Part shown: positions 545 through 25,694 of the stretch, piece after piece
How positions within the stretch are numbered: the first letter of the stretch is position 1
Layout: the number at the start of each line of letters is the position of its first letter
IMG/VR virus record: IMGVR_UViG_3300018079_000027
Location: 1 to 31,872 of that record
Length of the DNA: 31,872 nt
Reading direction: 5' to 3' (one strand)
Origin: a virus
Notes under the pieces: model-generated
The model's database searches: none
Told to the model about the DNA's origin: nothing
Seen by the model: the letters and a program-made list of their open reading frames with translations, nothing else
Made by a program: the position numbers and the translations under genes

Positions 545-844
545 TTAACAAGCGCAGGGGGTTTCGGCCACCGTCAGGACGTGCGTCTTTGCGCCGCCCG
601 TCTCAAGCACGGTGTCAAATTCTACTTGCGTGGGGTCGATGCCGACAAGCACGCGCCCTTGGGCGAAGGCGACCCACGTCCCGAACCCTAAGAGCACGGC
701 CGGGTTGGTCGGCACCGTGGAGAGAAAGATCGAGCCCACCGGCCAGGTGTGCTCATCCGCGCGCGCCGCCGCTTCGCGATTGTCTTGCCGCCGCAACGGT
801 TCGACGACGCGCCGTGGTCGCTGTCGGGCTTTGTCGCGTGCCAT
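545..844 (-). CDS. Short tail-fibre/baseplate-type protein (Gp10 C-terminal-like domain)
   Basis: A 99-residue protein. After a basic N-terminus (residues 1-30), residues 34-92 carry VGSIFLSTVPTNP, LLGFGTWVAF, GRVLVGID and ETGGAKTHVLTVAE. This is the order seen in the Gp10 C-terminal / tail-collar-like domain at the tips of many phage fibres and baseplates, where it takes part in trimerisation or host contact. In the family the TVAE stretch normally leads into a His-rich HTH segment, but here the protein stops a few residues later (TPCAC), so it is a short or clipped form. The start (844-842) overlaps the stop of the giant gene by 1 nt (TGATG), so translation is probably coupled. Confidence 0.75.
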   Translation of the reverse strand: MARDKARQRPRRVVEPLRRQDNREAAARADEHTWPVGSIFLSTVPTNPAVLLGFGTWVAFAQGRVLVGIDPTQVEFDTVLETGGAKTHVLTVAETPCAC

Positions 845-3800
845 CAGCGCCTCGGCCCACCGAGCACCACGGCCGCCGGGTTCTGCGTCTTCCCTTCGTC
901 GAGCGCCATGATGCCGTCCAGGGTCTTGTTGATCTGGCCGGCCGGGAGATGGAGCACCGTGCCCCCGACATCGACGGCGGCGCGTCGGAACGCCGCGTCC
1001 GGTTCCCCCTGCCGCGCTTGTTGCCCGAGGCGGGACAACGCGGCGAAGAATCGCGCGCCGGCCGGCCCGTCGTAGCCGTAATACCCCTGCAACGTCGCGC
1101 TGATCTCCCGGAGGCCGATCATCGTGCCGCTCATGTAGGACGCGACTTCCAGCGCCAGCCGCCACGCGAGCGCGTCTTCGTCGTCCTCCTCCCCAGGCCG
1201 GAGCGCGGCGCGCACCATGTAGCTGATGACCGCCGGCACGATGAAGAGCATCAGGTAGTCCGAGGCCAACCGTCCGACATCGGCCGGCTCGGTGAACCGC
1301 GTCCGCTGCGTGCTCTCCGCCGCTTGGTTGTAGAGCACGTTGAAGAACGAGTAGAAGTTCGTCCAGAGCCGCATCATCGGCCCGCCGCGTTGCACTTCCG
1401 ACAGATCCTTCATCTGGCCCCCGCCCTGTGAATCGAGGACCGCTTGATCGGCGAGCGCGACGGCCCTCGCCTCATCGTGCAGGCCGTTCGCGTCCAGATT
1501 GCGCGGGTCCGCCATGGCCTTCTCGTAGGCCCCGAGCCACGTCGGCACGTCGGCCATGCGTTGCATCGCTTGGATCATCCAGAAGTAGGAGTCCGCGACG
1601 CCTTGCGCCGACACGGTGCCACCGGACGCGCCACGGATGGAGGCTTCGACCCACCCGGTAATCACCCCGGTATCGACCCCGATCCGCCGGCGGATCTCGG
1701 CGATCTCCCGCTGCTGTGTGCGGCCACGCGAGCGCATGAACGCGCTCTGCTCCATGATCCAGTCCACCGTCTCGATCATCGTGGTCGGATGCCGGAACCA
1801 GCGCGCGAGCCCGCGCAGGACCCACCTCGGCCCAATCCGCACGGCACTGTTCGTCAGGCCAATCGGCTGAAGCATGGCCGTGGTGAGGTTCCAGCCGAGG
1901 CCGGCAATCGTCGCGCCGGCGCGAATGTGATTGATGAACCGCTCGACACCGCCACGCGCCGGCACGTCCCCGAAGGCCACGTCGCGGATGGTGTTCCGGA
2001 TCTGCTTATACACGAGGTCGCCCTGCGTCTCCAGAATCGCGTCCTGCACGGCTTTGTGGCCGATCAGGCGCCCGATGTCGAGCAGCGCCTCATGATGCGT
2101 GAGGTCGTGAATCACCTGATCAACGTGCTCGAACATCGGCCCGAAGTCCAGGCGCACCTTCTCCTTCAGCGTCGCTACGCGGGCCTGCGTATGGTTCCGC
2201 TTCGTCGTCGCGTGCGCGTAGGCCGCGTACCGCGCGAGATTCGCCGCATCGAGGTCGAGCTTGCTGATGGCCGTGGCGCTCAAGCGGTCGTCATACTTCA
2301 ATGGGAAGTAGCCGCCCGTCATCTCGCGCGTGCCGAGCCGGAAGGTGGCCGCCTCCACACGCGCCGGCGCCAGCCCGTAGACGCGCTCCTGCTTCGCTTT
2401 GATCGCCGGCCAATAGGAGTCCAGGAGATCGAAGACGCCCTGCACGAAGTCCGCGTCCGCCGGCGTCAGCGTGTCCAGGATGCTCTGCACCTGTTCCGTA
2501 CTCCACCCCTCGCCACGCTGAATCCGATCCCGGTTCCCATCGTTCCCCCAATTGAGCGCCACCATCAGGCGCTCCATCTGCGACAGACTCCGGCCGACCG
2601 CCGGGACATGCTGGCGCTCGTAGAGCAACCGCTTCGACCGCCCCGGATACGCGCGCTCGATGAGCGCGGCGAACCGCGCCGTGGCCTCGGCGTTCATCTC
2701 GGCTTCCCGTGCCCCGGCGTCATTAAGTGGACGCAGGAACGCGTCCCACACGGGTCCGCCATCCTGGAACCCGTCCAAGACCCGCACGAGGGACGCGAGC
2801 TTCCGGTGCCCGGCGAACCAGTCCTCGACAGCGCGCCGCCGTTCTTCCCCAGGCGGGCGATCGCGCCGCGGCTCGCGCCGACGTCTGCCCTGCGCGCGGA
2901 TCGACGTGGCCATCTCCGTGGCGGCGGCGTCCAGTTCCGCCTTCTGGTCGCCCTTGAGGAGGCGGCTGGCCAGCCGCGCGAGATGGAGAATCTGCGCGAT
3001 GCCGTCCGTGATGCCGATCAGTTCGGCCACCGTCACGTCCTGATAATTGATGCGTCTGGCGTCGTTCAGGACTTCGTCCGGCAGATCGACCGGGAGCCCC
3101 TCCCCTTCCATCGCCGCGACCCACTTCGTGATCTGCGCGCGCCGCTCCAGCGCCGGCCCGGACACACGCGCGAAGTCGTAGCGGTCCAGGATACCGAGGA
3201 TCTGATCGAGGAACGTGCCGCCCGCGAGGCCGAGGCGCGCCTGCGTGGCCGGGCGGTTGAGATCCCGCGCCTGCGTGATGCGCGACTCGATCTCGGCCAG
3301 CGTGGTCTCAGCCTCCCGGTAGAGGGCGAGGTGGAGCAACTCCTGCGTCTTGGCCTGAATCGCCGCGTCGAAGTCTTGCCGCGCAGCGGCCTCGGTCGCC
3401 GCCTGTGAGGCCCGCCGGGCGGCCGACCAGAACACGGCCGGCTTCAGGTCACGGTAGCGCGTCGCGGCGATACGCGCCTCGCCAATCTGCCGGATGGCGT
3501 CCGCCGGCGGGAGCGCGCCGCGGAGCGTCGCCCCACCACTGCGCGCCTTCCCCTTGAGGTTGGCCAACTCCCCACGCAAGGCATCGATCTCAACTTGCTT
3601 GCGCCCCTCCGCGATGGCGATCCGGAGCCGCGTCTCGGCCTCCAGCCACCGCCGCTCGTACGCGCGCTCCTTGCCCGCGTCGCGGAGCTTCTCGGCGCCT
3701 TCCGCCCGCACCGCGTCCTCGAACGGCGCCACGCTCCGCCGGAGCTGCCCAAGCGCCCGCAGCTCTGTGCGGATGACCAGCGCCCGGTCTGCGTTCGCCG

Positions 3801-6800
3801 TGGCGGCCTGCGCGGCCTCCGTCACAGAGCCGTCGAGCAACAGCGAGCCGTGACGGTCGATCATGAGTCGATCCGTCTCCCGGTCGATCGCCTGCCCCAT
3901 CGCCGGCGCCTCGGTGATCGCCGTCAACAGCTCGTCGCCACTGCCGAACCCGAATCGCTGCGCCACCGTCTCCGGATCGAGGCCGCCCTCGGCACTGTAG
4001 ACATAGGGCTTCGGGAGCGCGCGGAGCCGGTCGATCCCGAACCGGTCCACGATCAGCCGCCTGGAGAGCTTCAAGGGCGGCGTGATCAGCCCCTCCACGA
4101 GCGGCGTGCCGTCAGGATTCTTGCCGGCGCGCATGGCGGCCAGCGCCTTGTAGACGGGCTGCTGCTGCACGGTGCTCGCGACTTCCGCACGCACCTCGTC
4201 ACGCTCGGCCCGCCACTGGCCCTCTTGTTCCCGGCGAATCTCGGCCAGGAGTTTCCCGTCCAACTCTTCCCGCGCCGTGCGCGACGCGGCCTCAATCGTG
4301 GACCGGTAGAGGCCAAACCGCGCCGGGGTCATGCCGGCCGCCTCGGCCGTCAGGAACAGCGGCTCCATGCGCCCGCGCGCCTCCGCCTCCGTGATGGCCT
4401 GCTCGCTGGCGAGCATCCGGTCAAAGATGGCCCGCACCTCTGGCGTGAGCGTCGCGTCCATGTTCCGCAACGCGCGGTAGATCCCCAGGAACCACGCACG
4501 AAACCGCCCGAACGCGGACCGGAGCGCCTCGCTCGGGGCGCGACCTTCGGCGAGATACACCTCGAACAAGCGCGCCCACTGTTCGTGTTGCGCACGCCCG
4601 ATCTCCCGCCGGTTCTCCACGCCGAAGAGTTGCAAGATCGCACCGTAGTCTCCAAGCATCCGCCGCTGTGAGGGGGTGAGTTGTGCCGGGTCCTTCAGGC
4701 CGAGCCCGTCTACCACGTCCCCAAAGACCTCTAAGAAGAAGTGCCCGGTCTCGTGCAGGACGGTGGAGAGGTCGGCCTTCTCGAAGAGGTTGATGGTGAT
4801 GGTCCGGTTCGGCCCGATCACAATCGAGCCGCGCTTCCCGCCGAGCGTCGGCTGGAAGAGGATCTCCGGCCGCGTGGCGGCGAGATCGGTCCGGAGCGCG
4901 TTGATGGCGGCATCCCGGCTCGCCGTGTTGCCGGGGTCGTAGTCCATGACCGACAGCCCGGCTTTCGCCAGGATGGCGCGCGTCGCCGGCGTGGCAGTGG
5001 CTGGCACGACCGCGCCCGCAAACTCCGTGAGCTGCACGGCCCGTTGGGGTTTGCTCTCGAAGTACGGCACCGGGGCGTCCATGAACGCCCGGGCGGCTTC
5101 GACGCCTTGCGCCACGACCGACGCCGGCACGTGCGAGAACCCCTCCGCCGAGAGCGCCTTCCGCATCCGCGTCTCCGGCGTGTCCCGCATCGACTTCGCC
5201 CACCGGGCGACCGCCCGCATCGACGCATCAAGTCCGTGCCAGGTATCGATCTGCCCGCGCCAGTCCGTCTCGGTGTAGGAACCGAGCACTTCGCCGCGCC
5301 AGTCCGCGAGGAGTTGCTGCGCGCGCGCGCGTGCCTCGTTGACCTCGCTTTCCGGCTTGATGGCGTAAGCCGCGACATTCCGCATGTGTTCGACGGAGCT
5401 GAAGCGTCGCGCCGCCGCGGCCCGGGCCTTGCCCTCGCCGAAGGTCATGTGCTGCTGCTGCGCGTTGATGGACACCGTGGCCGTCATGCGCTCGACGATG
5501 TTCTCCAACGTATAGGGCACCTTGCGTCGGCGGAGCGTAATCTCCGGCGCCGGATGGAGCCCGAGAATCTGGCGATCGACCCACGCCTGAAACGCTGGCG
5601 TCCGCCCGACCATCTGCGCGTCGAGCGCCGCTTGCGTCGCCCCCACATCCATCCGGACCTTGCCGATGGCGTCCAGACTCCGGAGGACGCGCGGCGTGCG
5701 CCCGAAGGCGAAGAGGCCGTCGCCGTCTGTGTTGAACCATTCGTCCTCCAAGGAGGCAATCAACTCGCGCGTCGCCGCCTCCGCGTCTGCCGTGATCGCC
5801 GCCGTGTGCTCGACGAGCGCCGCCCGCACCGCGGCCGTGAGCTGCTGCCGATAGGCCGTGTCCGCGACGCCGTAGCGCCCGAGCTGCTCAGCGCCACCCG
5901 AGGCGGCCAAGAACGCTTGGAAACTCGGCGCGGTCACCCACCCCGCCTCTAGCTCCTTAGGCACCAGCACGGGCGGCGCCGGCGTGACGCCCTGCTCCCG
6001 CAGGAACACCGCCTTCGCCATCAGCGAGCGCCGGAGGATCTGAATGGACTCCTCCGGCCTCGGCCGGCTCACCGCGTGGTCCCACACTTCACTGAGTTTG
6101 CCATCTTCCTCGTAGGCCACGCTGTCCCTGCGGAACGTGTTGACGAGCGCCTGCGTGGGCTTCATCTTGGCCTTGCGATACTCGGGCGCCGGGAACGTCA
6201 TGCTCCAGGCGTCCGCGTCGAAGACGGGATGCTGCGCCGGGTCCGCCAGATCCCGCCCGCCCAACAGGGTGATCTCGCCGAAGCCGTGGAGGGCGCCGCT
6301 CCCTTCCGGCTGCACGGCAATGGACGGCACGGCGAGCGCGCCGAGCGCCTCGGCCGAGGCGAGGTTCTCCGCCGTGAGCTGATGGATGGCCGTCAGCCGT
6401 GGGCTGTCCTGATAGAACTCCACGACCTCGATCAGTCGGTCGTCGAAGACGACGTAGTTGGCCGTGCCCTCCTGCACCGAGCGGGACAGACCATCGAAAT
6501 ACCGGAGCCCCGCGACGCCGTGGGCGGCAAGCTGTGCCGAGGCCACTTTGGCAAACTCCTGATTGAGTGACCAGCCGCCGCTGGGTGGGCGCCCGCCGAC
6601 CGTGGCCGCCCGCCGATGCAATTCGCGGTAGATGTCCTCGCCACGCCACACGAAGGCTTGCGCGGACTGGAGCTTCCGATCGAGGAGCGCGCTGTGCTCC
6701 CGATACCACTCCGCCCACGCCTCCGCGTTGCGCGTCTCGACGTAGTACCGGCCGGCGTTCAGGATCTCCCGCGTCTCGATGTTGGCCGCCATCCGCTCCG

Positions 6801-9800
6801 CGATCAGCATGGCTTGCAGGCCGGAGCCGCCGACACCGAAGAGTTGCTCCGCGTGCGCCCAATCCGGGATGGTGAGTGCGGCGTCGATGGTGAAGCCGAG
6901 CTGCACCAGCGCGGTCTTCACAATCGACGGCTGCTCAGCGATCGGCTTGTCCCAATCGAGGAAGTGCGCGTCGTCGGGAATCTCCACCTTGTAGGTGCGC
7001 CCCGGCTTCTCCGCCGGGAGGATCTCCATCCGGTCGCCCCACTTCTCCAGGGCGGCGAGCGCGGCGCGGGCCGCGGCGAAATGAAACAGGTCCCGATTGA
7101 GGTCGCCGCTAAAGGTGCGCCCCTCTGCGAACACGACCTCGTAGTTGGCGATGGAGCGCGTCAGTTCGTCCCGGAGCGCGGCGATGCTCGCCTTCCCCGG
7201 CCGTTTGAAGTGCGCGCGCGCGAACAGCTCCAGGAGCCCACGTCCGAGTTGCCCGCCCTCAGTCGTGGTGTGGTTGAGCGTGCCGTAGACACTGTCCTCC
7301 TCCCCGATCACGCTGACGCCGTCGATCACCAGTCGCTTGTCCAGGCCTTTGCCGGCCAAGCGCTCCCGGTAGCCCTCGGCCACGTCCCGCAGACTGGCGA
7401 AGTAGAGGCCGTAGCCGAACGCTTGGTGCCCTTCCCCATTGCCGATGCTATGCAGCGAGAACTTCTCGAAGATGTAGGGCGAGCCGTGGTAGACCGGCTG
7501 AAACAGTTCCGTTTGCGTCCCCTTCGTCGCCCGGTCCTCGGTGGCCGTCAACGCGAACGGCGCCTCGATGGCCGGCGTCGCGACCTCCTGATCGCGCACG
7601 GCGCCGGCGGCGGGGAGTCGCGGCTGCACTTCCCCGGTGTCGAGCACATCCTCGGCCGGGAGGCTGTCTTCGTCGATCACGACGAGTGCCGGGAAGGCGG
7701 TCTTGCCGAGCATCAGGAGCGCATCGAACCGATGGCTCCCTTCGAGGATGTAGTAGTAGTCCGGGTCCGGGTTGCCGGGCTCGATCACGACGATCAGCGG
7801 GTTGACCTCGCCCGAGGCCGCGATGGCATCGCGGAGCGCCTCGGTGCGCTGTTGCGTCTGGGGATTGATGAAGGTGGGCGGGGGGGTCGGACCGAACGGG
7901 ACCGCCCGGATGCCCGGCAGGACGCGGTAGGTGGAGAGCGACGCGCTGATGGAGTCGGTGTTCGGCACCTCGGCCCGCACGACGAGCCCGTCCACCACGT
8001 CCGAGACGACCGGGTAGAACGCATCGAGTGCCGGCGCGGCTGTCGCGCCCTGCGTGATCGGGACAAACTCACTGCCGCCGAAGGGTGGCCCGTAGGTCTG
8101 CGTGCCGTAGAGGCCTCGCGCGCTCCGATACGCCTCGGCGAAGCTGTCGTAGAGATCATGCCCGGAGGGCGTGCCCTCGTCGGTGAAGGCCGTGAGCTGC
8201 CAGCGCCCGGCCTCCTGTGTGCTCGGATGGACAACGAGTGCCCGCCCGGAGGGCGCGATCAGCCGCACGCCGGCCGGCGTCGCGCCCGCCTCGACGATCT
8301 CCTGTTCGACTTGAGCACGGCGCTCGGCGTTACGGGCCTTCAGCTCCTCCAATGTGGGCTGGGCCGCCGGCGCCGGCGCGGGCTCCCCGAACAGATCGAA
8401 CAGCCCTTGCTCGAAGGTAGACACATCGAAGCTGATCTCCTCGCCTTCGACGGGACCCAACCAGGAATCGGCCCACCATTCGGTTGTCGGGTCCATGCCC
8501 ATGACGGCGAGTTGATCGGACCCGGGATAGACGCCTTCCGTGTAGAGCGCCGGGTGCCGGATCGCGTCGTCGATCGCCTCGGTGAGCACGTCCGGCGTCG
8601 TGATCCAGGCGTAGCGATCGTCTTGCCGGAGTGACGTGGCCAACAGGTCGAGCGTCTGCCGGCTGTCCTTCTGGAAGACGCCCTTCACCCCGCGCACGCG
8701 CCCGAAGGTCTGCCCCTCCATCAGGAGCGCCACTTCACCAGGGAACGACGGGTCGGCTGTGTTGAGCCCGCCACGGTCGGCGATGGCCTTCAAGAGATCG
8801 AGCGGATCGTGGCCGCTCTCGGTGTAGGTGCTCGCGGCCTCTTCCCAGAGGTCAATCCGGATCGCGAACTCGCGTTGCAAGAGTGCGCGGTCTACGTCTG
8901 GCTGGAGTTGCGCGGCGTGGTGCGCGACGTGCGCGAAGAGCGCCCCGTAGTGCTGCGTGCGGCGGACGGCGTGGGCCTCGACGACGTAGCGGCGGCGGCG
9001 GGAGGCGAGGGCTGTATCGGACTCGCCGGTGCGCCGACGGACGAGTCGGGCCACCTCATTTTCAGCGACGCTCGGCCGGCTCTCAAAAAGGCCAACCGCG
9101 GGGTCATCCCCTGTCGCACGGAGGTCAAGACGGTCACCCTCGGGTTCGGCATCGGCGACTCCAGTCTGCGCTTCGGCCGCCGGCGCCGTCAAGCCAGGCA
9201 CTTTGCCGCCCCGGTGCTCGTGGATCTCGAACCCGGTCCGACTCTCCACGCCGAAGGTCTCGCCGTTCTGCGCGTGGTAGTCCACGGCGCCGCCCGTCGG
9301 AATCACTCGACGACGACCGGCGCGGTCGTAGACGACAAAGGTTTGGCCGGCGGCCGTCATGGCCGCGAGGCGACGGTTCTCTTCCTCGGACCCCAGGCCC
9401 GTCTCGCTGACGTTCGCGGTGAACGTCTCCTCTCCCCGCGGTTCGAGCGTCGCGCCGCCCAGCTCGGCTTCCAGCTCCGCCAACCCCGGGATCGCCTCGG
9501 CCGTCTCGCCCGGCACCACGAGGTCCGATCCCGCCGGCGGGACGGGCGCCGCGGGTGCGGCGGGCGGCGCGGCCCCCCCGCTCGGCTCGCTCGGTGCGCC
9601 CGGCGTGACACGTGCCGCCTCGGCGGCGGTAGGCCGCGCGACCGTCAACCCGTATCGGCTATACAGCGCCGCGGGATCGAGCCCGGCCTCTTCGGCCAGC
9701 GTGCCGATGCCAGCCGCTAGGAGTTGCGAGATCGGCTCAGCGGTCGCCGCCGTGAATTGCCCGCCCGTGACGAGCTGCGCGGACACCGCCCGCCGGACCT

Positions 9801-11523
9801 GCTCTCGGCTGGACGGTTCGGCCGCTGGCAAGCCCGCCTCGGCTTCCTGCTTCGTGCGCTGCTCCTCGATGAACGCGGTCGCCTCCCGCGCGTTCATCTC
9901 CTCCGGCCCCAAGCGCAACTCCCCGCCGAAGAAGCCGTTGTGCTCGGTCCCCGCCAGCGTGACCGCGTAGCGGGCCGTGGGGATGGCGAGGTCGACGCCC
10001 GTCTCCCTGGCCGTGGCCAGCGCCGCACGGTCCCCGGTGACCGTGGCGGCCATCTCGGCCGGGTCGATCCCCTTCTCCTGCCAGTACGTCGTCCAGGTAT
10101 CCAGTGGGGCATAGAGCGTGCCAATCGGCCCGTCTTTGGTCGCCTGCTCCAGCAACTCTTGCGCCGCTGCCGGCATCCGCGTGACGGTCTTTGACTGGCT
10201 CACCCCTTCCCCGAGGGCCGTGAACCAGGTGGCATTGTGCTGGGCTTGGCGTGCCCGCTGGACATCGTGCGCGAGGCTGAGGGTAGGGCCGGGTAGGCCG
10301 ACGAACGCGAAGCCCTGAGCGGCGCCTACCGCCTCGCGCCCCAGGTCGGCCATCACGTCGTCCGGGGTCCGCATCGGCAGCGGTTGCCCGGACACCGCCT
10401 TGCCCAACTCACCAGACAGAATCGTAATCGCTCGCTGGGCGACCTCGACCGCTGTTTCCTTCGTCACGACACCGCCGTAGCTCCCCAAGGCATCGCGGAG
10501 CGCCGCGCGCACGGTGGGAGACTTGAGCGCCGTCGCGATCGCGGTCCGTGCCATCGCCCCCTTCAGTTGGTTGAGGCCGGGGATGCTCTTCGCGAGGATC
10601 CCCAAGCCCACCACTTCGAGCCCGGCGTTCAACCCGCCAGCGGCCAGCGCGGCCACCTTCGCCACGTTCTGATCAAGCGGCCGACCGAGATCGTCGGTGA
10701 AATCCGGGTTGGTCTGGAACTCGTCATAGGCGAGCCCGGCCTCCAACTCGAACCCGAACTGGGCGGCCCCCACGCCCAAGCCGACCGAGAGCCCGAACTT
10801 CGCGCCGGCCGCGGCCCCAGGAATGGCCCCCACCCCGCCGACCACAGCCCCGCCGGCGCCGCCGATAAAGGCGCCCGTCACGGCTCCCAGGACGCCTTTG
10901 GCGCCCGCGCGCTGTGCGCCGAAGAGCACGTTGGCCAGGAGCGCGGATCCACTCGTGACCGCCCCCCGGAACCAGGAATCGCCGGCGCCCAGCCGCGCGC
11001 CGGACTCGGTGAGGAACTTCTCCGAATTGAGGGCGTCCAGCTCCTCGCGGGTCAGATCCCGAAAGAGGCTTTTCGTGCGAAGTTCGGCCATCCGCATGTG
11101 CGCGGCCGACTGCGCGAAGGCCCGTTGTGGCGCCGTGACGAGCCACTCCAGGAGCCCTAACTGTTCGAGGTCATCCTGCGCGAGGGCCGCGTTCTCTGGC
11201 TTCGCGGTCCACTGCGCGAGCGCCGGCGTCTCATCTTGCATCGCCGCATAGGGCCGCCCCTCGACGGCGCCCTGCTTCTGATACCGCTCAAAGTCCCGAT
11301 CGATGATCGGCGCCGGCACGCGGAGCTGGTCGGACAGCCGACGGACCTCCGCGGCGCGCTCAGGCGTCGTGTCGGTCGCCGTCCGCATCGACCGGCGCAG
11401 TGTGCTCTCCCGCGCGGACCGCTGATCGAGGATCGTCTGGTAGAACGGGTTGGGGTCCGCCGACGGCGCCTGATCGTCGTCGAGCCGTTGCAGCTCGTCG
11501 TCGAATTGATTGAGCGGCGACAT
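844..11523 (-). CDS. Giant gp16-like ejected virion protein with polyvalent-protein domains (3559 aa)
   Basis: It follows gp14-like and gp15-like genes, the place of T7 gene 16, whose product is ejected into the host. Regions visible in order: a charged N-terminus; a Gly/Ala-rich glycine-zipper segment at about 208-256; a Pro/Ala linker near 640-670; a helical region near 900-1000; a ParB-like fold near 1170-1290 with EGSHRFD (His1264); an ADP-ribosyltransferase-like (ART-PolyVal) region at about 1340-1695 with YHGSP (His1346), GYGLYF and EGTANYVVFDD; a zincin metallopeptidase motif HETGH (His2257, Glu2258, His2261); long charged helices at about 2400-2860; an LPD38-like region from about 2870; and a hydrophobic segment near 3419-3440. 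It is nearly three times the length of T7 gp16, and I see no clear lysozyme or transglycosylase motif. Likely carried in the capsid to help DNA entry and deliver enzymes. Start and stop overlap both neighbours by 1 nt. Confidence 0.9.
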   Translation of the reverse strand: MSPLNQFDDELQRLDDDQAPSADPNPFYQTILDQRSARESTLRRSMRTATDTTPERAAEVRRLSDQLRVPAPIIDRDFERYQKQGAVEGRPYAAMQDETPALAQWTAKPENAALAQDDLEQLGLLEWLVTAPQRAFAQSAAHMRMAELRTKSLFRDLTREELDALNSEKFLTESGARLGAGDSWFRGAVTSGSALLANVLFGAQRAGAKGVLGAVTGAFIGGAGGAVVGGVGAIPGAAAGAKFGLSVGLGVGAAQFGFELEAGLAYDEFQTNPDFTDDLGRPLDQNVAKVAALAAGGLNAGLEVVGLGILAKSIPGLNQLKGAMARTAIATALKSPTVRAALRDALGSYGGVVTKETAVEVAQRAITILSGELGKAVSGQPLPMRTPDDVMADLGREAVGAAQGFAFVGLPGPTLSLAHDVQRARQAQHNATWFTALGEGVSQSKTVTRMPAAAQELLEQATKDGPIGTLYAPLDTWTTYWQEKGIDPAEMAATVTGDRAALATARETGVDLAIPTARYAVTLAGTEHNGFFGGELRLGPEEMNAREATAFIEEQRTKQEAEAGLPAAEPSSREQVRRAVSAQLVTGGQFTAATAEPISQLLAAGIGTLAEEAGLDPAALYSRYGLTVARPTAAEAARVTPGAPSEPSGGAAPPAAPAAPVPPAGSDLVVPGETAEAIPGLAELEAELGGATLEPRGEETFTANVSETGLGSEEENRRLAAMTAAGQTFVVYDRAGRRRVIPTGGAVDYHAQNGETFGVESRTGFEIHEHRGGKVPGLTAPAAEAQTGVADAEPEGDRLDLRATGDDPAVGLFESRPSVAENEVARLVRRRTGESDTALASRRRRYVVEAHAVRRTQHYGALFAHVAHHAAQLQPDVDRALLQREFAIRIDLWEEAASTYTESGHDPLDLLKAIADRGGLNTADPSFPGEVALLMEGQTFGRVRGVKGVFQKDSRQTLDLLATSLRQDDRYAWITTPDVLTEAIDDAIRHPALYTEGVYPGSDQLAVMGMDPTTEWWADSWLGPVEGEEISFDVSTFEQGLFDLFGEPAPAPAAQPTLEELKARNAERRAQVEQEIVEAGATPAGVRLIAPSGRALVVHPSTQEAGRWQLTAFTDEGTPSGHDLYDSFAEAYRSARGLYGTQTYGPPFGGSEFVPITQGATAAPALDAFYPVVSDVVDGLVVRAEVPNTDSISASLSTYRVLPGIRAVPFGPTPPPTFINPQTQQRTEALRDAIAASGEVNPLIVVIEPGNPDPDYYYILEGSHRFDALLMLGKTAFPALVVIDEDSLPAEDVLDTGEVQPRLPAAGAVRDQEVATPAIEAPFALTATEDRATKGTQTELFQPVYHGSPYIFEKFSLHSIGNGEGHQAFGYGLYFASLRDVAEGYRERLAGKGLDKRLVIDGVSVIGEEDSVYGTLNHTTTEGGQLGRGLLELFARAHFKRPGKASIAALRDELTRSIANYEVVFAEGRTFSGDLNRDLFHFAAARAALAALEKWGDRMEILPAEKPGRTYKVEIPDDAHFLDWDKPIAEQPSIVKTALVQLGFTIDAALTIPDWAHAEQLFGVGGSGLQAMLIAERMAANIETREILNAGRYYVETRNAEAWAEWYREHSALLDRKLQSAQAFVWRGEDIYRELHRRAATVGGRPPSGGWSLNQEFAKVASAQLAAHGVAGLRYFDGLSRSVQEGTANYVVFDDRLIEVVEFYQDSPRLTAIHQLTAENLASAEALGALAVPSIAVQPEGSGALHGFGEITLLGGRDLADPAQHPVFDADAWSMTFPAPEYRKAKMKPTQALVNTFRRDSVAYEEDGKLSEVWDHAVSRPRPEESIQILRRSLMAKAVFLREQGVTPAPPVLVPKELEAGWVTAPSFQAFLAASGGAEQLGRYGVADTAYRQQLTAAVRAALVEHTAAITADAEAATRELIASLEDEWFNTDGDGLFAFGRTPRVLRSLDAIGKVRMDVGATQAALDAQMVGRTPAFQAWVDRQILGLHPAPEITLRRRKVPYTLENIVERMTATVSINAQQQHMTFGEGKARAAAARRFSSVEHMRNVAAYAIKPESEVNEARARAQQLLADWRGEVLGSYTETDWRGQIDTWHGLDASMRAVARWAKSMRDTPETRMRKALSAEGFSHVPASVVAQGVEAARAFMDAPVPYFESKPQRAVQLTEFAGAVVPATATPATRAILAKAGLSVMDYDPGNTASRDAAINALRTDLAATRPEILFQPTLGGKRGSIVIGPNRTITINLFEKADLSTVLHETGHFFLEVFGDVVDGLGLKDPAQLTPSQRRMLGDYGAILQLFGVENRREIGRAQHEQWARLFEVYLAEGRAPSEALRSAFGRFRAWFLGIYRALRNMDATLTPEVRAIFDRMLASEQAITEAEARGRMEPLFLTAEAAGMTPARFGLYRSTIEAASRTAREELDGKLLAEIRREQEGQWRAERDEVRAEVASTVQQQPVYKALAAMRAGKNPDGTPLVEGLITPPLKLSRRLIVDRFGIDRLRALPKPYVYSAEGGLDPETVAQRFGFGSGDELLTAITEAPAMGQAIDRETDRLMIDRHGSLLLDGSVTEAAQAATANADRALVIRTELRALGQLRRSVAPFEDAVRAEGAEKLRDAGKERAYERRWLEAETRLRIAIAEGRKQVEIDALRGELANLKGKARSGGATLRGALPPADAIRQIGEARIAATRYRDLKPAVFWSAARRASQAATEAAARQDFDAAIQAKTQELLHLALYREAETTLAEIESRITQARDLNRPATQARLGLAGGTFLDQILGILDRYDFARVSGPALERRAQITKWVAAMEGEGLPVDLPDEVLNDARRINYQDVTVAELIGITDGIAQILHLARLASRLLKGDQKAELDAAATEMATSIRAQGRRRREPRRDRPPGEERRRAVEDWFAGHRKLASLVRVLDGFQDGGPVWDAFLRPLNDAGAREAEMNAEATARFAALIERAYPGRSKRLLYERQHVPAVGRSLSQMERLMVALNWGNDGNRDRIQRGEGWSTEQVQSILDTLTPADADFVQGVFDLLDSYWPAIKAKQERVYGLAPARVEAATFRLGTREMTGGYFPLKYDDRLSATAISKLDLDAANLARYAAYAHATTKRNHTQARVATLKEKVRLDFGPMFEHVDQVIHDLTHHEALLDIGRLIGHKAVQDAILETQGDLVYKQIRNTIRDVAFGDVPARGGVERFINHIRAGATIAGLGWNLTTAMLQPIGLTNSAVRIGPRWVLRGLARWFRHPTTMIETVDWIMEQSAFMRSRGRTQQREIAEIRRRIGVDTGVITGWVEASIRGASGGTVSAQGVADSYFWMIQAMQRMADVPTWLGAYEKAMADPRNLDANGLHDEARAVALADQAVLDSQGGGQMKDLSEVQRGGPMMRLWTNFYSFFNVLYNQAAESTQRTRFTEPADVGRLASDYLMLFIVPAVISYMVRAALRPGEEDDEDALAWRLALEVASYMSGTMIGLREISATLQGYYGYDGPAGARFFAALSRLGQQARQGEPDAAFRRAAVDVGGTVLHLPAGQINKTLDGIMALDEGKTQNPAAVVLGGPRR

Positions 11524-13307
11524 CAGCGTCCCGCCGGCCGCGGCCCGATGGACGGACCCAGACGCCGGATCCGCAGGTCGTGCGAGATGTAGAGGTCCAA
11601 GACCGTCTTGTCGTTCACGGGCGTGCCGGCGCGGCGGAGCGCCTCTTCAATCTGTGGACGCATCCCCGGCGGTACGTCGGCAATCGTGAAGTCCACGACG
11701 CGCTTGGTCTGATCGCTCCAGTCGTAGGTAAACGGCCGGTAGATCGCCTTGAAGGACCCAGGCACCGTTTCACTCTGGCCGAGAATGAAATCAAGCTTTT
11801 CTTGAATTTCATTCCCCGTTAGCTTCTTGCGTTTCCCGGCGACGTCGGGCGCCTGTGCCGCTTCAATCGCGAGGTCAAGTTGCCGTTGCACGTGCGCGAC
11901 GGCGTTGCCGTCTGGCGTGCCCGGCTTCGCCTTCGGGTCGATCCCGTAGAGCCCGAGCGTGCCGTCGAGAATGTCCGTCTTCGTGCGGAAGAGCGCGAGG
12001 TCCTTCTCCGCGGCGTCCCGGTTCCCGCTCGCGATCGAGAGCTGCACCCCATTGAGCTGCTTGAACTCGACATCGTCGAGCAGATGCCGGTACGCCATGA
12101 GGTTGGTCTTGCTGGACGCGAACCCGTCCGGATCATCCGCCGCCTGTCGCATCAGCCGGTTGTAGACCGCCCAGTCGGTCTTGATCGGTTTGCCGGCGGC
12201 GCGCTGCGTGGCGTAGCTCCACATGGCCGAGCGGGTCGAGCCCTCGAACCCCGCCCACTGTGCCGGCGGGATCTTCGTCGGGTCGCCGGTCTTGTCGATG
12301 ATGTCGTAGCCGACGCGCATCGACTCCTTCGTCGCCTCGTCCTGTTCCCGATCGGCGATCGTGCGGTCGTGTTCGAGCCGCCGTTCGACCTTGTCGCGTA
12401 ACTCGCCTTCGTAGGCCGCCGCCTTCGCCCGCTGCTCGGTGAGCGTCCCACCCTCGCGCAGAATCCTGTCCGCGATCTTCTGCGCCTCGACCGTCTCGGT
12501 CCCCTCCGTGAGCGCCGTCCTGACATCGTCCAGTTTGTCGCCATCGATTTGATCGGTGGCCGCCTCGAAGTAGACCGTGGCGGCCTTCGGCTGCTGCTGC
12601 GCGAGCAGGTTGTAGATCACACCGACGTGCGTCTCGGTCTTCACGGCGCGCACTTGGGCCTCGACGGCCTCGGGGCTGAGCCCGGCGCGTGGCCCGTGCG
12701 TGCGGACCTTCTCGATGGCCTTCGTCAGCTCTTCCCCGACACGCGCCGGGTCCATCGCGTTGGCGACGGCGGCGTTGGTCCGGTTGGCCACGTAGGCCTT
12801 CACTTCGTCGGCCTCGTAGGTTTGCATCTCCGTGAAGACATGGCGCCGCAGCGTGATATCCAGCCGTGCGGCCCGGTTCGCGAACAACTTGGCGGCGATG
12901 GCCCGCTGGCGGTCGTTCGACGCTGTGCCAGCGAGATCGCCTGTCAGCTTCTTGAACTCGCCGTTGACTTGCTCGGGCAGGACGTTGGCGGCCTCGCCCT
13001 TCTGCGCGAGGGCGCCCGTCTGCGGGTCGTAGAGGCGCGGATTCTCCCAGGCGTCGAGCTGATTCTCCAGGTTGAGCCCGAAGACCTCGTCCGCCCGCTG
13101 GCGTTCTTCGTGGACGATGCGCGCGACGTTCTCCGCCCCGATCCGCGCAATCTGCCCGCCGAACTCGGCGATGGCGAGCCCGGTCTGCTGCTTCGCACGC
13201 TCGACGCCGACGCCCGTGGAGGCCTCTGTTTCCCCGGCCGTCTTTCGCGCGCCGGGCAGCGCCGCGAGTCCAACCTGCCGTTCGCCGTAGCGGGGGACGA
13301 TGGGCAT
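11523..13307 (-). CDS. gp15-like internal virion (DNA ejection) protein
   Basis: A 594-residue soluble, mainly helical protein. Its opening (MPIVPRYGERQVGLAALPG) and the ENPRLYDPQTGALAQKG and NDRQRAIA stretches in the first 140 residues match the internal virion protein family that T7-like podoviruses place between gp14- and gp16-type genes. T7 gp15 (747 aa) forms part of the internal core and of the ejection channel across the periplasm. There is no signal peptide or membrane segment. The start overlaps the gp14-like stop by 1 nt and the stop overlaps the giant gene's start by 1 nt, so the three ejection proteins are probably made by coupled translation. Confidence 0.85.
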   Translation of the reverse strand: MPIVPRYGERQVGLAALPGARKTAGETEASTGVGVERAKQQTGLAIAEFGGQIARIGAENVARIVHEERQRADEVFGLNLENQLDAWENPRLYDPQTGALAQKGEAANVLPEQVNGEFKKLTGDLAGTASNDRQRAIAAKLFANRAARLDITLRRHVFTEMQTYEADEVKAYVANRTNAAVANAMDPARVGEELTKAIEKVRTHGPRAGLSPEAVEAQVRAVKTETHVGVIYNLLAQQQPKAATVYFEAATDQIDGDKLDDVRTALTEGTETVEAQKIADRILREGGTLTEQRAKAAAYEGELRDKVERRLEHDRTIADREQDEATKESMRVGYDIIDKTGDPTKIPPAQWAGFEGSTRSAMWSYATQRAAGKPIKTDWAVYNRLMRQAADDPDGFASSKTNLMAYRHLLDDVEFKQLNGVQLSIASGNRDAAEKDLALFRTKTDILDGTLGLYGIDPKAKPGTPDGNAVAHVQRQLDLAIEAAQAPDVAGKRKKLTGNEIQEKLDFILGQSETVPGSFKAIYRPFTYDWSDQTKRVVDFTIADVPPGMRPQIEEALRRAGTPVNDKTVLDLYISHDLRIRRLGPSIGPRPAGR

Positions 13308-13882
13308 CAGGCCGCCGCGCTCTTCGTGCCTCGCCCGAAACCATACCTGGACTCGACGGCGGACGCGCCCTCGATGATGGACCCGACAGCGCCAAACCGC
13401 GCCGCGACTTGCGCCTCACGACCCGCCGCTGCCGCCTGGACGCCTTCTTTGCGCGTAATGACCGCCCGCTGCCGGGCGTCCTCCGCCTCGACTTTGTAGC
13501 CCCAGGCTTCGCGCGCCGCGTTCGTCCGGATCTGCAGCGCGTCCAACTCGCCGAGGAACGCCGCGTCGGCCTGCACGTCGACCGCTGAGCCGAAGTTCAC
13601 GTCGATGTTCCCGGCCGCGATGCCGGCGCGTTGCGTGCCAATCATCCCGTCCACGCGCTGACGAAAGCGGCCTTCCTCGTCACGGCCACGGGCCTCGGCA
13701 TCCTTCGCCTGCAGCTCCGCCACGGCCGCGTTGTAGTCCGAGAGTTGCGCCTGTGACTCGGCGGCTTCTTGCGCGGCGAGGCCGGCGCGCTTCGCGGCAC
13801 GCCCGGCGCGCACGGCCCCGACGACTTTGGTCGCCGTGCCCGCGATCAGGAGCCCAATGCCGAGTGCCGTGAAGGCAGCCAT
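13307..13882 (-). CDS. gp14-like internal virion protein
   Basis: A 191-residue Ala-rich protein. It has a hydrophobic N-terminus (MAAFTALGIGLLIAGTATKV), a long coiled-coil-like region (about 25-90), and the stretch GIAAGNIDVNFGSAVDVQAD followed by LGELDALQIRTNAAREAWGY. The latter is typical of the internal virion proteins encoded just upstream of gp15-type genes. The size fits T7 gp14 (196 aa), which is proposed to form an outer-membrane pore at ejection. The ATG lies just after the stop of the 107-residue gene (TAAGCGATG) with little Shine-Dalgarno sequence, so coupling is likely. Its first ten residues and the DNA encoding them are shared exactly with the 106-residue gene at 26015. Confidence 0.85.
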   Translation of the reverse strand: MAAFTALGIGLLIAGTATKVVGAVRAGRAAKRAGLAAQEAAESQAQLSDYNAAVAELQAKDAEARGRDEEGRFRQRVDGMIGTQRAGIAAGNIDVNFGSAVDVQADAAFLGELDALQIRTNAAREAWGYKVEAEDARQRAVITRKEGVQAAAAGREAQVAARFGAVGSIIEGASAVESRYGFGRGTKSAAA

Positions 13883-14210: not shown

Positions 14211-16445
14211 TCACCCTCCCACGTCGACATTCGGAATCACCCCAAGGATCGTTAACGGCAACGGGTCGGTCTGCCGGATGAGCACGCGCCCACGCTTCGT
14301 CGCGCTGGAGGTCAGGCTCAGCTCCAGTTGCCCGGTGTGATCGCGCTCGGTCGTGTCCCACGGCGCGAGTGTGTATTGTCGCAGATGCGTCTCGTCTTCG
14401 CCCGCCGAAAAGGACCGGCTAGACCGGTCCACGAGCACCGACACACTGCCGACCCGCTTCTTCCGGTCCCGGATGTCGGAGCCCGCCGCGTCCATGTCGA
14501 GCAGTTCCACGTCGGGATACCGGATCGGCAGCCCCACATGAATCAAGCTGGCGGCCACCGCGAGCGTGATCGCGCCGGTCGTGACCACAAACGCCGACGC
14601 GCCCGGCGTCGCCGGGTTGCCATCGAACACGACCGCGCCATCCGCTACGACCGCGACCACTTGGCCGTCCAGATGACTGAGCCCGCTGACCGTCGTCACG
14701 GGCACGCCGGCGTAGGTGAGCCCGGAGTCCACGAAGAAGCTGTCCGTCGCAAAGAACGCCGGGCGCGCGTCGCGCTTGGCGAGCCGCTCGATGTAGCGCA
14801 CGGTCGCGCCGCCGATGGTCCGGGCGACGAGGAGGTACACCACGTCCTCGGTCCCTTCGGGCACGACCACCACGTCCTCGATGATCCCGCTCGTCTGCGC
14901 CGTGAGCGTCTGCTGGATCGTGGTGTGCCGATGCCAGCCCCAGACCTCTTGTTCGCGGAGGTAGGTCAGCCCGAGCAGGACGCCGTCCGCGCGCACGCAC
15001 CAGACAATGGAGTGCGGGTTCTCCTGATAGGCGATCTTCCGGATGGTGAGGTTCTCGAACAGGTGCGCGGCGTAGACCGTGAGATCCCGGCCGGCCAGCC
15101 CCTCGACCCCTTGCGAGAACTGCGCATCGCGGATGATGCTTTGGCGCGCCTGCACGTAGATCACGCTGTTGCCGACGACCACCGGCTTCACGTCGGCGGC
15201 ACCGGCGTAGAGCTGTTGATCCGCCGGCAGGTTCGACGGTGTCAACGGTTCGCCGGGTTGGCCGACCGACCAGCCGCCGCCGCCGGTGAACACGATGAGC
15301 TGCTTCAGACTCAGCAGATGGCGGACGGGGTGAAACAGGTTGCCCGCGATGCGAAACGTGATCGCGTCATCGTCCTGCAACGGCGAGGCGATCCCGAAGT
15401 TCGACGGGAACCCCACACGCGAGCCGTAGATCGCGTCCGGCTCCGTGACCGTGTTCGCAAACAGCCGACGTTGCTGATGGAAGGCGGAGTGGCGCGGAAA
15501 GTTGTTGGTGGTCGTGAACAAGACGCGCGGGATCGGCGGCGTGACGTTGAAGTCCGGCACGAACCCGGTGTCGTTGAAGCTGGCGGCCGACGCCGTGCCG
15601 GTGAACCCGAACGTGCCGTTGTCGTAGCGGTCGCAGTAGACGTAATACTCGGCGGCGCCGGACACCGGGGTCCACGTGAGTACGTTCGGCGCCGTCGGCG
15701 TCGGCTCCGCGCACGCCGCCACGGTGGCGGTGGTGGAGGCGTTCGACTCCTCATACGTCTCGACGGCCGCCGCGGTGACCTTGTAGCGGTAGGTGAGGGT
15801 CCCCGCGGCGCCGGCGACGCCCCCGAGGCCCGACGGCGCCGCGATCGCCGGCGTCGTCGTCACGGGTCGCACGACCCACCGCGTCGTGGACGAGAAGATG
15901 AGATCGTGTGACGGCTCGAACGCGCTCGTCAGCGTGAGCACCGCGCCCGACTGGTTGTAGTCGAACAGGCCGTTGCCCCCGTAGGGGTGGGGAATCTCAT
16001 AGATCCCGCCGGCGGGCATCGCATACCAGAAGCCCGTGTTGGGCGGCACTTGATTCAGGTTCGCGGTGTGGCAGTAGTAGTTCACGCCGCCTTGCACGAC
16101 GAGGTCGCCCGGCACGTAGTTGACGACGGCCGACCAGGCCGACAGCCCCGTCACGGTGACGAGCGCCCCGGTCAGGTAGAAGCGAAAGTACCCGACGCCG
16201 ACCTCGATGAGCATGCCATTGCCGTCCGGCAGATGGAACGGCATCAGCATGACCGTGGCCGCGGTGGTTTTACAGGCGCGGATGAACCGAAAGCCCGCCC
16301 GATTCTCGACGCCCCCTTCCCGGCGCACGACGAAGTTCTTGCACGTCTTGAGGGCCGAGAGGTAGCGCGCGGTGTCCGCGCGCGCATGGAACGCCGGCGC
16401 CAGCTCGCCACCGGCGAAGCTCCGTTGCATCACGCTCTCGGCCAT
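14211..16445 (-). CDS. Tail nozzle protein (T7 gp12 / tail tubular protein B-like)
   Basis: A 744-residue protein, close to T7 gp12 (794 aa). The N-terminus carries SFAGGELAPAFHARADTARY followed by KNFVVRREGGVENRAGF, the hallmark of this family, in which the protein forms the nozzle at the tip of the short tail. Residues 104-142 (WSAVVNYVPGDLVVQGG to FWYAMP) look like a small carbohydrate-binding type 5/12 insertion. About 200-305 is fibronectin-III-like (Thr/Ala-rich, ending before NVTPPIPRVLF). The C-terminal half is beta-rich. The gene begins directly after the stop of the 42-residue membrane protein (TAGATG), which implies coupled translation, and it lies downstream of the adaptor domain, as expected for adaptor-nozzle partners. 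Confidence 0.9.
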   Translation of the reverse strand: MAESVMQRSFAGGELAPAFHARADTARYLSALKTCKNFVVRREGGVENRAGFRFIRACKTTAATVMLMPFHLPDGNGMLIEVGVGYFRFYLTGALVTVTGLSAWSAVVNYVPGDLVVQGGVNYYCHTANLNQVPPNTGFWYAMPAGGIYEIPHPYGGNGLFDYNQSGAVLTLTSAFEPSHDLIFSSTTRWVVRPVTTTPAIAAPSGLGGVAGAAGTLTYRYKVTAAAVETYEESNASTTATVAACAEPTPTAPNVLTWTPVSGAAEYYVYCDRYDNGTFGFTGTASAASFNDTGFVPDFNVTPPIPRVLFTTTNNFPRHSAFHQQRRLFANTVTEPDAIYGSRVGFPSNFGIASPLQDDDAITFRIAGNLFHPVRHLLSLKQLIVFTGGGGWSVGQPGEPLTPSNLPADQQLYAGAADVKPVVVGNSVIYVQARQSIIRDAQFSQGVEGLAGRDLTVYAAHLFENLTIRKIAYQENPHSIVWCVRADGVLLGLTYLREQEVWGWHRHTTIQQTLTAQTSGIIEDVVVVPEGTEDVVYLLVARTIGGATVRYIERLAKRDARPAFFATDSFFVDSGLTYAGVPVTTVSGLSHLDGQVVAVVADGAVVFDGNPATPGASAFVVTTGAITLAVAASLIHVGLPIRYPDVELLDMDAAGSDIRDRKKRVGSVSVLVDRSSRSFSAGEDETHLRQYTLAPWDTTERDHTGQLELSLTSSATKRGRVLIRQTDPLPLTILGVIPNVDVGG

Positions 16446-21662: not shown

Positions 21663-22808
21663 CTAGGGGATCGTCGCCTCGGTGTTCAGGATGGCATCGA
21701 CGCGCCGGATGGGCACGTTGCCGAACATGAGCACCCTCTTGCCCGCGAAGTTCTCGTAGGTCAACCCGCCGCCGGCCGAGACATCGGCTCGCGCCTGCTT
21801 CCGCAGGTAGCGGCTGACGCGCCGGTTGACGTAGAACACCCGCTTGCCGAGCGCGTTGGGGATCAGCTCGTCCGCCTGTTCCATGTGATCGATCAGGTCG
21901 GTCGGTGTGGCACCGGTCAGGTTGCTCGTGTCGATGTTGGCGATTCGCACGATGTAGCGCCAATCCTTCACGACCAGCCCGGCCTTCCACTGATACCGCT
22001 CGCGCAACGCGCGCATCCGCGCGCCCGCGACGCCGGCGGTGACTTCGACCGTCTCTTCCCCGTAGTCGTCGTGGACGAGCCCGGCCTTCGAGCCCTTCGG
22101 GAAAATCCCGTGGCAGGTGTCCTCCCCCCAGGCGACGAGCCAGATGCTCGTATTGTCCGAGCCGACCCCATCCGCTTTGATGATGTTGTCGCCGTTGCTG
22201 GCGGTGGAATCCGAGAAGCGCGGCGCGAGGCCGGTGAACTCCTCAGGGGCGAGCCCGCCGTTGCCGTAGATCAGGGTCGAGGCCATTTCCTGATTCATGG
22301 CTTCGAGGAACGCCTTCGCTTCCGACAAGCGGAACGCGGAGATGTTCCCGTTGAGCATCGCGAGATCCTTGTCCACTTCCGACCACGCTTCGAGCATCCC
22401 GGTCTGCTCGTCGATCTGCACGGTCGTGGACTTGGACGGCGCGACGCCCTGGTTGAGCATGCGCCAGAACACGGAGGGGAGGCCCGACCGCACCGTCGTG
22501 CGGTGCCCGGTGGGTAGGTTCCCTTCGCGCCAGAGCATGTCGTCGAGCAACTCGTTCGACTGGCTCAACAGTTCGACGATGTCCGGCACTTTGCCGTTCG
22601 GGTCGAGGCGCTTGGCCCAATCGTTCAGGGTCAGCGCGCCGGTGCCCAAGACCACGCCGAACACCACCAGCGTGTTCACCGGGTTACTGAAGAACTCCGC
22701 CAGAGCGCCGGAGCCCAGCCCCGAGCCCGTGTGGACGAGCGAGGCCGCGCTCACCGGCTCGCCGAACGCCATCAGCGCGGCGAGGATGACCAGCAACAAT
22801 CGAAACAT
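21663..22808 (-). CDS. Major capsid protein with hydrophobic N-terminal extension
   Basis: A 381-residue protein. From residue 58 (GALTLNDWAKRLDPNGKV, then LDDMLWREGNLPTGHRTTVR) it matches the major capsid family of BPP-1-like podoviruses through to the C-terminus, so the shell subunit is complete. Family members as I know them start close to the TLNDWAKR motif. Here about 57 extra residues precede it: a signal-peptide-like stretch (MFRLLLVILAALMAFGEPVS, possible cleavage after VSA at 19-21), a Gly/Ser linker, then a second hydrophobic segment (about 44-57). The ATG at 22808 has GGAG 8 nt upstream. GTG codons near 22660 could start a conventional-length protein but lack a ribosome binding site. 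Confidence 0.9.
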   Translation of the reverse strand: MFRLLLVILAALMAFGEPVSAASLVHTGSGLGSGALAEFFSNPVNTLVVFGVVLGTGALTLNDWAKRLDPNGKVPDIVELLSQSNELLDDMLWREGNLPTGHRTTVRSGLPSVFWRMLNQGVAPSKSTTVQIDEQTGMLEAWSEVDKDLAMLNGNISAFRLSEAKAFLEAMNQEMASTLIYGNGGLAPEEFTGLAPRFSDSTASNGDNIIKADGVGSDNTSIWLVAWGEDTCHGIFPKGSKAGLVHDDYGEETVEVTAGVAGARMRALRERYQWKAGLVVKDWRYIVRIANIDTSNLTGATPTDLIDHMEQADELIPNALGKRVFYVNRRVSRYLRKQARADVSAGGGLTYENFAGKRVLMFGNVPIRRVDAILNTEATIP

Positions 22809-23559: not shown

Positions 23560-23939
23560 GGTGTGTCGTCTCCTGTGTCGGCGCGCGCGGTGTGCATCGC
23601 GGCGATCTCGGCGGCCTCAGCCCGTTGCTTGGCCCGCATGTCGTGTTCCATCAACTCGAAGAGATCCTCGTCGGCGCGGAGGAGCGCGGCCTTCAGTTCG
23701 AGCCCGAAGTTCCGGCGCCCTTCCCGGAAATACATGATCGAGCCTGAGTGATCGAACACGGTGTCGTCCAGGCCGGCCCGCCCGAGGATCTCCCACATCA
23801 ACCGCCGCCCATCCGCCTGATTCATGACCGCCCGGACCACAGCGAGGAACTCGTCCTCGCGCTGCTGTTCTTTGCGGCGCGCGAAGGCGACCTGTTTGCG
23901 GTCGGCCGCGTTCTTGACGAGGGGCTCACGGTCTCTCAT
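23556..23939 (-). CDS. Bbp19-like phage protein
   Basis: A 127-residue helical, charged protein. MRDREPLVKNAADRKQV at the start, GRRLMWEILGRAGL in the middle and MYFREGRRNFGLELKAAL after it are the marks of the Bbp19-like family, named from phage BPP-1. It is typically found between portal and scaffold genes. Its exact role is not known to me; its position points to head assembly. It overlaps both neighbours by 4 nt (ATGA), so it is very likely translationally coupled to the portal gene. Confidence 0.85.
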   Translation of the reverse strand: MRDREPLVKNAADRKQVAFARRKEQQREDEFLAVVRAVMNQADGRRLMWEILGRAGLDDTVFDHSGSIMYFREGRRNFGLELKAALLRADEDLFELMEHDMRAKQRAEAAEIAAMHTARADTGDDTP

Positions 23940-25693: not shown

Positions 25694-25694
25694 C

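Follow-up and report, generated by a model that had tools for sequence, protein, structure and literature searches.

The virus record IMGVR_UViG_3300018079_000027 was analysed over its complete length of 31,872 bases (the window), which carries a podovirus late operon. The subject here is its giant gene, an open reading frame (ORF) on the minus strand that begins with ATG and encodes a stop-free protein of 3559 residues (Table 1); the plus-strand reading of the same interval is interrupted by stops. The operon runs in the order terminase, portal, head protein, tail protein, gp14-like and lysozyme-like internal proteins, with the giant gene directly after the last two. The same virus occurs in a longer record (L003, in G001; 44,805 bases), with which the window shares one overlap of 15,960 bases and 0 mismatches.

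The original prediction placed this gene where gene 16 of phage T7 would be, and that position is backed by PHROG matches, by a sub-threshold match to Pfam T7_gp14, and by synteny with Bordetella phage BPP-1 and annotated relatives. The C-terminal core is homologous to PHROG 9880 (E=0 over residues 2647–3550), which its members and matches indicate to be the family of Bbp10 of BPP-1. Using tblastn, the C-terminal part matched BPP-1 at 36% over 98% of the query, and relatives were present in 42 phage records. The giant ORF thus sits at the gp16 position of a Bbp10-type podovirus. The earlier statement that the protein is nearly three times the size of T7 gp16 holds, since the latter is given as 1318 residues (PMC8954989); a nearer yardstick is Bbp10 itself, with 2052 residues. 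The giant protein is not simply an enlarged gp16.

Table 1. Features of the giant protein and neighbouring genes, with residues of the giant protein and positions in the window.
Feature	Residues	Position	Strand	Basis
Giant ORF, 3559 residues, ejection protein at Bbp10/gp16 position		844..11523	-	PHROG 9880 over residues 2647–3550
Chassis: LPD22 domain	43–135	11119..11397	-	Pfam PF18834, 3.5e-16
Chassis: conserved N module	416–630	9634..10278	-	iterated hidden Markov model
Cargo slot (1600 residues)	631–2230	4834..9633	-	near-constant flanks in 29 proteins
ParB-like segment (weak)	1222–1286	7666..7860	-	PHROG ParB-like matches, 2e-4 to 0.015
Candidate joint LFQ	1340–1342	7498..7506	-	Q nearly invariant before ADP-ribosyltransferase in 21 sequences
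ADP-ribosyltransferase (H-Y-D; H1346, Y1374, D1694)	1343–1702	6418..7497	-	weak sub-cut-off Pfam ART-PolyVal; alignments; model
Candidate joint FYQ	1703–1705	6409..6417	-	border of ADP-ribosyltransferase end and PBECR5
PBECR5 RNase-like domain	1709–1849	5977..6399	-	Pfam PF18814, 3e-16, 60.5 bits against gathering score 25
Two segments travelling with PBECR5	1860–2221	4861..5946	-	profile matches across loci
Candidate joint LFQ, just before zincin	2222–2224	4852..4860	-	Q in 70/74 aligned rows
Chassis: zincin-like metallopeptidase	2231–2417	4273..4833	-	iterated profiles, alignment
HETGH active-site motif	2257–2261	4741..4755	-	residue positions, alignment
Chassis: helical segment	2425–2600	3724..4251	-	iterated profiles
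Chassis: C-terminal core	2685–3555	859..3471	-	PHROG 9880, tblastn, iterated profiles
Protein in gp15/structural-lysozyme position		11523..13307	-	PHROG 10475, 6e-49
gp14-like internal virion protein		13307..13882	-	PHROG 418, 9e-25; Pfam T7_gp14, 3.6e-5, below cut-off
Tail protein, PHROG 376		14211..16445	-	3e-161
Major head protein		21663..22808	-	PHROG 212, 4e-91
Gene with PHROG named protease		22837..23559		PHROG match
Portal / head-tail adaptor		23936..25738	-	PHROG 332, 5e-153

Chassis and cargo slot

Iterated profiles built from the window protein found the same parts constant across relatives: LPD22 (38–126), the N module (416–630), a zincin-like domain (2231–2417), a helical segment (2425–2600) and the C-terminal core (2685–3555). 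The LPD22 profile matched 32 of the 35 non-truncated proteins of the relatives set. Across 29 proteins the N part measured 540–757 residues (standard deviation (sd) 51) and the stretch from the zincin to the C-terminus 1231–1440 (sd 49); the slot between them ranged from 20 to 2035 residues (sd 532), and total length followed slot length with r=0.99. This set omits six proteins without an N or zincin match as well as truncated ones, its start codons were guessed, and Mel-JY33 lacks the first 100 codons in the sequence used, leaving its N part and total 100 residues short. The C-terminal constancy is partly by construction, because the C-terminal part had recruited the set; the N part was not used. 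A wider census of 98 cluster representatives gave slots of 13–2342 residues and r=0.97, with more variation in the constant parts (N 385–809, zincin to end 700–1472), part of which probably reflects ORFs that are broken or misjudged.

We are therefore highly confident that the protein is built on a chassis in which a conserved N module, zincin and C-terminal core flank one slot with exchanged cargo. A larger gp16 with enzymes scattered throughout was considered and rejected, because the extra length is confined to that slot. Bbp10-type proteins range from about 1900 to 4200 residues because the delivery machine is near-constant and the load changes. Bbp10 of BPP-1 shares the gene position, N module, zincin and C-terminal core, but its slot has 174 residues with PBECR1 where the window protein has 1600 with an ADP-ribosyltransferase (ART) and PBECR5.

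Pfam was run on the slots of the 29 proteins, the two shortest excepted (n=27), with limits of E 0.01 or 0.1. The cargo recognised comprised ART-PolyVal, PBECR1, PBECR5, GGDEF, GNAT, LPD3, LPD23 and DUF7178, some below cut-off, and 7 of the 27 slots had no match at these limits. By relative, PBECR1 was found in BPP-1, ART in SR18, LPD23 in AF, GGDEF in L005, LPD3 in L008, and GNAT with PBECR5 in Ab9. Caulobacter phage SR18 and Cobetia phage Carin1 have ART and PBECR5 in their slots. The BPP-1 protein is annotated 'crystallin motif', and its PBECR1 RNase-like domain (L001:10033-10554; 4.5e-9) fills the slot between N module and zincin. The GGDEF domain (diguanylate cyclase; L005:7328-8929; 2e-16) is likewise carried by an ejection protein as slot cargo.

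Predicted enzymatic domains of the window protein

The motifs from which the original prediction had read enzyme-like domains are all present: EGSHRFD at 1261 (His1264), YHGSP at 1345 (His1346), GYGLYF at 1370, EGTANYVVFDD at 1685 and HETGH at 2257. The slot is occupied by the ART, which is of H-Y-D type, by PBECR5 together with two more segments and, with weak support, by a ParB-like segment. For the proposed ParB-like domain, the motif stands and the support for a domain is weak, consisting of the PHROG ParB-like matches (best E 2e-4); a PDB match to sulfiredoxin had E 0.27, and model confidence was low over residues 1238–1337. Profile searches with residues 1060–1200 and 1205–1300 matched only copies of the same virus among the loci then in the set, and residues 1268–1320 matched L006.

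The ART was better resolved. Among 21 aligned ARTs, H1346 and Y1374 never vary and D1694 hardly does, an arrangement published for such enzymes (PMC5512222). These residues would correspond to the His of strand 1, the Tyr of strand 2 and the Asp of strand 5 in a Tox-ART-HYD2-type enzyme. A predicted model of residues 1196–2228 had a mean predicted local distance difference test score (pLDDT) of 76. Comparison of the modelled ART by VIA-align gave as its best row residues 1421–1603 of a chain of the cyanophage A4 pre-ejectosome, an ejection complex inside the virion (PDB 9k3a; Z 11.0, window residues 1341–1705, 149 aligned), followed by diphtheria toxin and tankyrases (Z 6.3–8.1, starting at residues 1330–1338). 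The top 19 rows were 9k3a, diphtheria toxin and 17 tankyrase entries (Z 6.3–11.0). Foldseek returned no PDB match for this model at E≤0.001. The predicted model supports the ART fold originally proposed, and the region fits the H-Y-D type, with Asp1694 and not Glu.

By the same comparison, residues 1421–1603 of the A4 chain would themselves form an ART. In Anabaena phage A-4L (L297), assumed here to be the same phage as A4, the largest ORF is annotated only as a tail protein and has YHGT at about 1456 (match 1442–1457, stop-to-stop reading); the chassis profiles do not match it and HExxH is absent. If that identity is right, an ART-like end seems to be part of the solved A4 pre-ejectosome.

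PBECR5, which the original prediction did not list, is the sole cargo domain of the window above the Pfam cut-off. PBECR5 and its two accompanying segments had profile matches in 21, 21 and 22 loci, duplicate contigs included, and mostly occurred together.

The zincin lies beyond the slot. HExxH does not vary among 31 aligned zincins, of which 30 came from relatives found through the C-terminal core or tblastn and not through the motif; the alignment (n=31) has H27, E28 and H31 plus the downstream E84 and E91 invariant. HExxH or HExxxH was present in 141/141 clusters of a later census, a count to which the census patterns themselves contributed, since they included HE. In 2013, residues 700–1000 of Bbp10 served as one of the seeds for the CLCA_X zincin family (PMC3650047). 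Structural comparison of the modelled domain gave only weak rows, in which no zincin stood out except lethal factor protease (4xm7) at rank 8 (Z 4.5, 98 residues, root mean square deviation 5.0); a comparison with Spartan gave E 0.1. The assignment as a putative zincin thus comes from the motif, its invariance and the earlier profile work, with weak structural support. The original prediction counted the zincin among several host-modifying enzymes. The conserved family and intact motif bear out the domain, but, as part of the fixed chassis beside the slot, it does not belong with the exchanged cargo enzymes. It may act as an additional host-directed effector, one belonging to the fixed and not the exchanged part.

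A glutamine motif at domain borders

A listing of slot ends showed [LFY]-x-Q just upstream of the zincin in nearly all relatives despite their differing cargo. The general form of the motif is [LFYIVM]-x-Q, with [LFY] in the first place in most cases. In the window protein, motifs of this kind (here LxQ) end at Q1342, Q1705 and Q2224 and thereby bracket the ART and the PBECR5 unit. A joint rule was fixed in writing and afterwards tested on further loci that a search with the zincin had supplied (the best 80 out of 110 genome matches and the best 80 out of 570 viral matches). [LIVMFY]xQ occurred in the 20 residues upstream of the zincin in 91 of 107 new 70%-identity clusters (2 of 109 left out); random windows drawn 500 times from these proteins gave 27.8 ± 4.4 and never more than 41. 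In 8 of the 16 misses the Gln lay just past the profile start. When old and new clusters were anchored on HExxH (1 of 141 left out), the motif was found 22–52 residues upstream in 136 of 140, against 47–67 in eight control bins, and its tighter form in 122 against 13–36. As the clusters are still related, these counts are not independent trials.

The motif also recurs within the slot. More than 60 residues from the zincin, LxQ was found before the start of ART1 in 11/12 cases (control 2.4), after its end in 6/6 (1.4), and after the end of ART2 in 12/14 (5.5), the two failures being perhaps false anchors. The PBECR5 cassette had LxQ upstream in 16/17 (control rate 0.34 per window) and downstream in 16/16 of those whose end could be placed; the downstream count has no control, and in four of these the next domain, by eye, was not the zincin. 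LFQ occurred 16 times in slots against 2.7 in shuffles, and 6 times in the chassis against 9.0. The best structural row of the modelled ART corresponds to the interval between two joints.

A further scan for ART1 yielded 28 anchored rows among 80 loci, using a broader motif for which no control was computed. LxQ lay upstream of ART1 in 14/14 rows with this zincin and in 4/14 without it (2/8 closed ORFs). The rows were not deduplicated (L218, L235, L246 and L292 are known contigs; L253 and L269 are near-identical), and one scan pattern contained Q before YHG; rows found with the other, unbiased pattern gave 12/12 with zincin. Distant relatives L028–L032 have the chassis core and no zincin-profile match. 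Three of them (L028, L029, L031) were compared, with wrong segment bounds for L028 and L029; close to the helical segment they share a conserved AAYEQ as the sole LxQ, and they are too few to count.

On this evidence the LxQ joints are probably processing sites. Whether the zincin is the protease that acts on them we regard as evenly balanced, and we lean slightly towards the combined reading, an effector polyprotein on an ejection chassis that is cut at the joints, most likely by its own zincin.

Several observations weigh against this combined reading. In the chassis, too, [LIV]xQ exceeds shuffles (692 vs 566), looser [FY]Q patterns show no clear enrichment in slots, and the N-side joint is only mildly enriched (15 of 118 clusters left out; tight form in 46/103 where 28.0 were expected, loose form in 74 where 58.7 were expected). 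No joint motif occurs in the 45 residues after residue 630 of the window protein, and its slot holds five tight LxQ away from the named joints (residues 883, 967, 1039, 1655 and 1893). LxQ-flanked ARTs occur in L263, without this zincin (ORF truncated on the left), and in L217, where none was seen but may follow because the ORF is truncated on the right; L290, also without this zincin, has LFQ before its ART and a different HExxH, and PBECR5 in L119 has no upstream motif. DdrB of phage P1, tried as a positive control, gave a weak profile match and, although processed, lacks a tight LxQ beside its HELGH, a result that is uninformative or adverse. Foldseek gave no PDB match for the zincin model at E≤0.001, and neither cleavage nor virion data for this protein family were found.

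The motif could instead be structural, serving as the first zincin strand or a bound pseudo-substrate at the last joint and as a linker habit elsewhere, in a protein that works uncut. In the predicted model, ILF at the last joint forms part of a short strand (mean pLDDT of the block 65), so that the motif there may belong to the zincin fold, and the virion RNA polymerase (vRNAP, gp50) of phage N4, which has a HExxH domain, is packaged unprocessed (PMC5512222). However, among 74 aligned sequences the joint Gln is kept in 70 while its spacing to the RG at the zincin start varies, with gaps at four columns (alignment A2, composed of the window sequence plus 73 out of 108 usable rows; of the others, 28 were not listed and 7 were set aside by hand). 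Moreover, away from the zincin the motif is found at the edges of ART and PBECR5 units whose neighbours are unrelated. We consider this structural explanation unlikely. Regarding the alignments, A3 had misplaced rows, and for A4 4 rows were removed and 8 trimmed before folding.

Cutting by another protease, of the phage head or of the host, is a further alternative. In T4 and giant phages, a prohead protease matures head proteins at short x-x-E sites. Head proteins of SPN3US are described as cut by the prohead protease, and the late operon of the window has a gene with a PHROG named protease, as does BPP-1 (Bbp18). Yet neither 'protease' gene has a Pfam match up to E 0.1, both BPP-1 capsid proteins seem uncleaved (PMC3863775), and in the ART1 scan LxQ was present in 14/14 rows with this zincin against 2/8 closed ORFs without. 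We give this alternative little weight.

Lastly, the giant gene could encode an ordinary polyvalent protein of the type described in 2017, its joints being recombination seams for cassette exchange with no role in the protein. Cassettes are indeed swapped among relatives, but the motif is kept at the protein level with a variable middle residue and differing neighbours, and some other large phage proteins repeat different joint motifs, which makes this account improbable.

Proposed release of effectors and comparison with known systems

Under the preferred reading, processing at LxQ by the zincin, packaging and ejection of the chassis would follow the pattern of T7 gp16, for which both steps are established (PMC8954989). 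Cleavage would follow the Gln of each joint, most simply by the zincin in cis, and could take place during assembly, in the head or after host entry. The cuts would free the ART (residues 1343–1705) and the PBECR5 RNase-like unit (1706–2224) from the DNA-delivery core, allowing them to act on host targets before phage gene expression. As proposed for these domains, the ART would modify host proteins and PBECR5 would cut RNA.

Some large phage proteins that have the same kind of ART but not this zincin repeat other motifs at their joints, namely [IL]QF[ML]PAE or variants (L277, L283) and RFQP (L280); in L226, where the core is present and HExxH absent, AFS[IV]S surrounds the ART. No repeated motif was seen in the same comparison in L247, L252, L266, L271, L290 and L291. 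These motifs were chosen by eye and the pattern was noticed after the fact. A tentative generalisation, to which we give somewhat less than an even chance, is that each phage effector-polyprotein family has its own border motif read by a cognate protease, a punctuation code in which LxQ would go with this zincin. If so, cassette exchange between families would need re-punctuation.

Much of this has precedent. Polyvalent proteins, with their ART, PBECR and zincin domains, are already published, as is the idea of domain release by a zincin, proposed in 2017 (PMC5512222). Like the proteins described there, which are large, lie near virion genes and include LPD22, H-Y-D ART, PBECR, ParB-like and zincin domains, the window protein is encoded next to virion genes and combines several domains with quite different activities in a single chain. 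Its original description as a polyvalent-type protein in an ejection-protein locus is upheld by LPD22 and PBECR5 above Pfam cut-offs, the ART by alignment and model, and the zincin motif; the structural matches envisaged at that time were obtained for the ART region, which matches ART folds, and not beyond weak rows for the zincin.

The passages of PMC5512222 drawn on here differ from the present account in that they contain no fixed slot, Bbp10/gp16 chassis or joint motifs, and make no mention of bordetella, gp16, linker or LFQ. A single exchange slot in the Bbp10 chassis was likewise not found described in the parts of the literature consulted, and no description of LxQ joints in phage polyvalent proteins was recognised among the top-ranked results from the open-licence literature. 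The 2017 proposal names no cleavage site in the text consulted, and a conserved joint motif makes it testable at the bench. The motif also offers a sequence-only way of splitting giant phage proteins into effector units.

N4 vRNAP offers an architectural parallel, with an N-terminal domain, an enzyme, a HExxH domain and a large helical C-terminal domain in an ejected protein (PMC12633501), but its enzyme is an RNA polymerase. Its zincin-profile match is weak (E 6e-4), and homology of the C-terminal core to vRNAP C2 was rejected, there being no detectable profile match. The purified protein shows no evidence of degradation (PMC12633501). Because it is packaged uncut, a HExxH domain need not cut its own chain, which counts against self-processing in the window protein; N4 vRNAP also has no tight LxQ between residue 2014 and HELVH, which fits the joint rule. 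A precedent for a giant protein in podovirus virions is the DarB-like gp69 of the Bcep22-like phage JC1 (4515 residues), detected by mass spectrometry with 51 unique peptides (PMC9144972).

Two further observations concern other genes of the window. The proteins encoded at 13307-13882 and 25695-26015 (both minus strand) share the N-terminal sequence MAAFTALGIG, a possible leader duplication. A 1222-residue tail protein encoded at 16574-20242 (minus strand) has a weak match to a carbohydrate-binding module (CBM_5_12, E 0.007, below cut-off).
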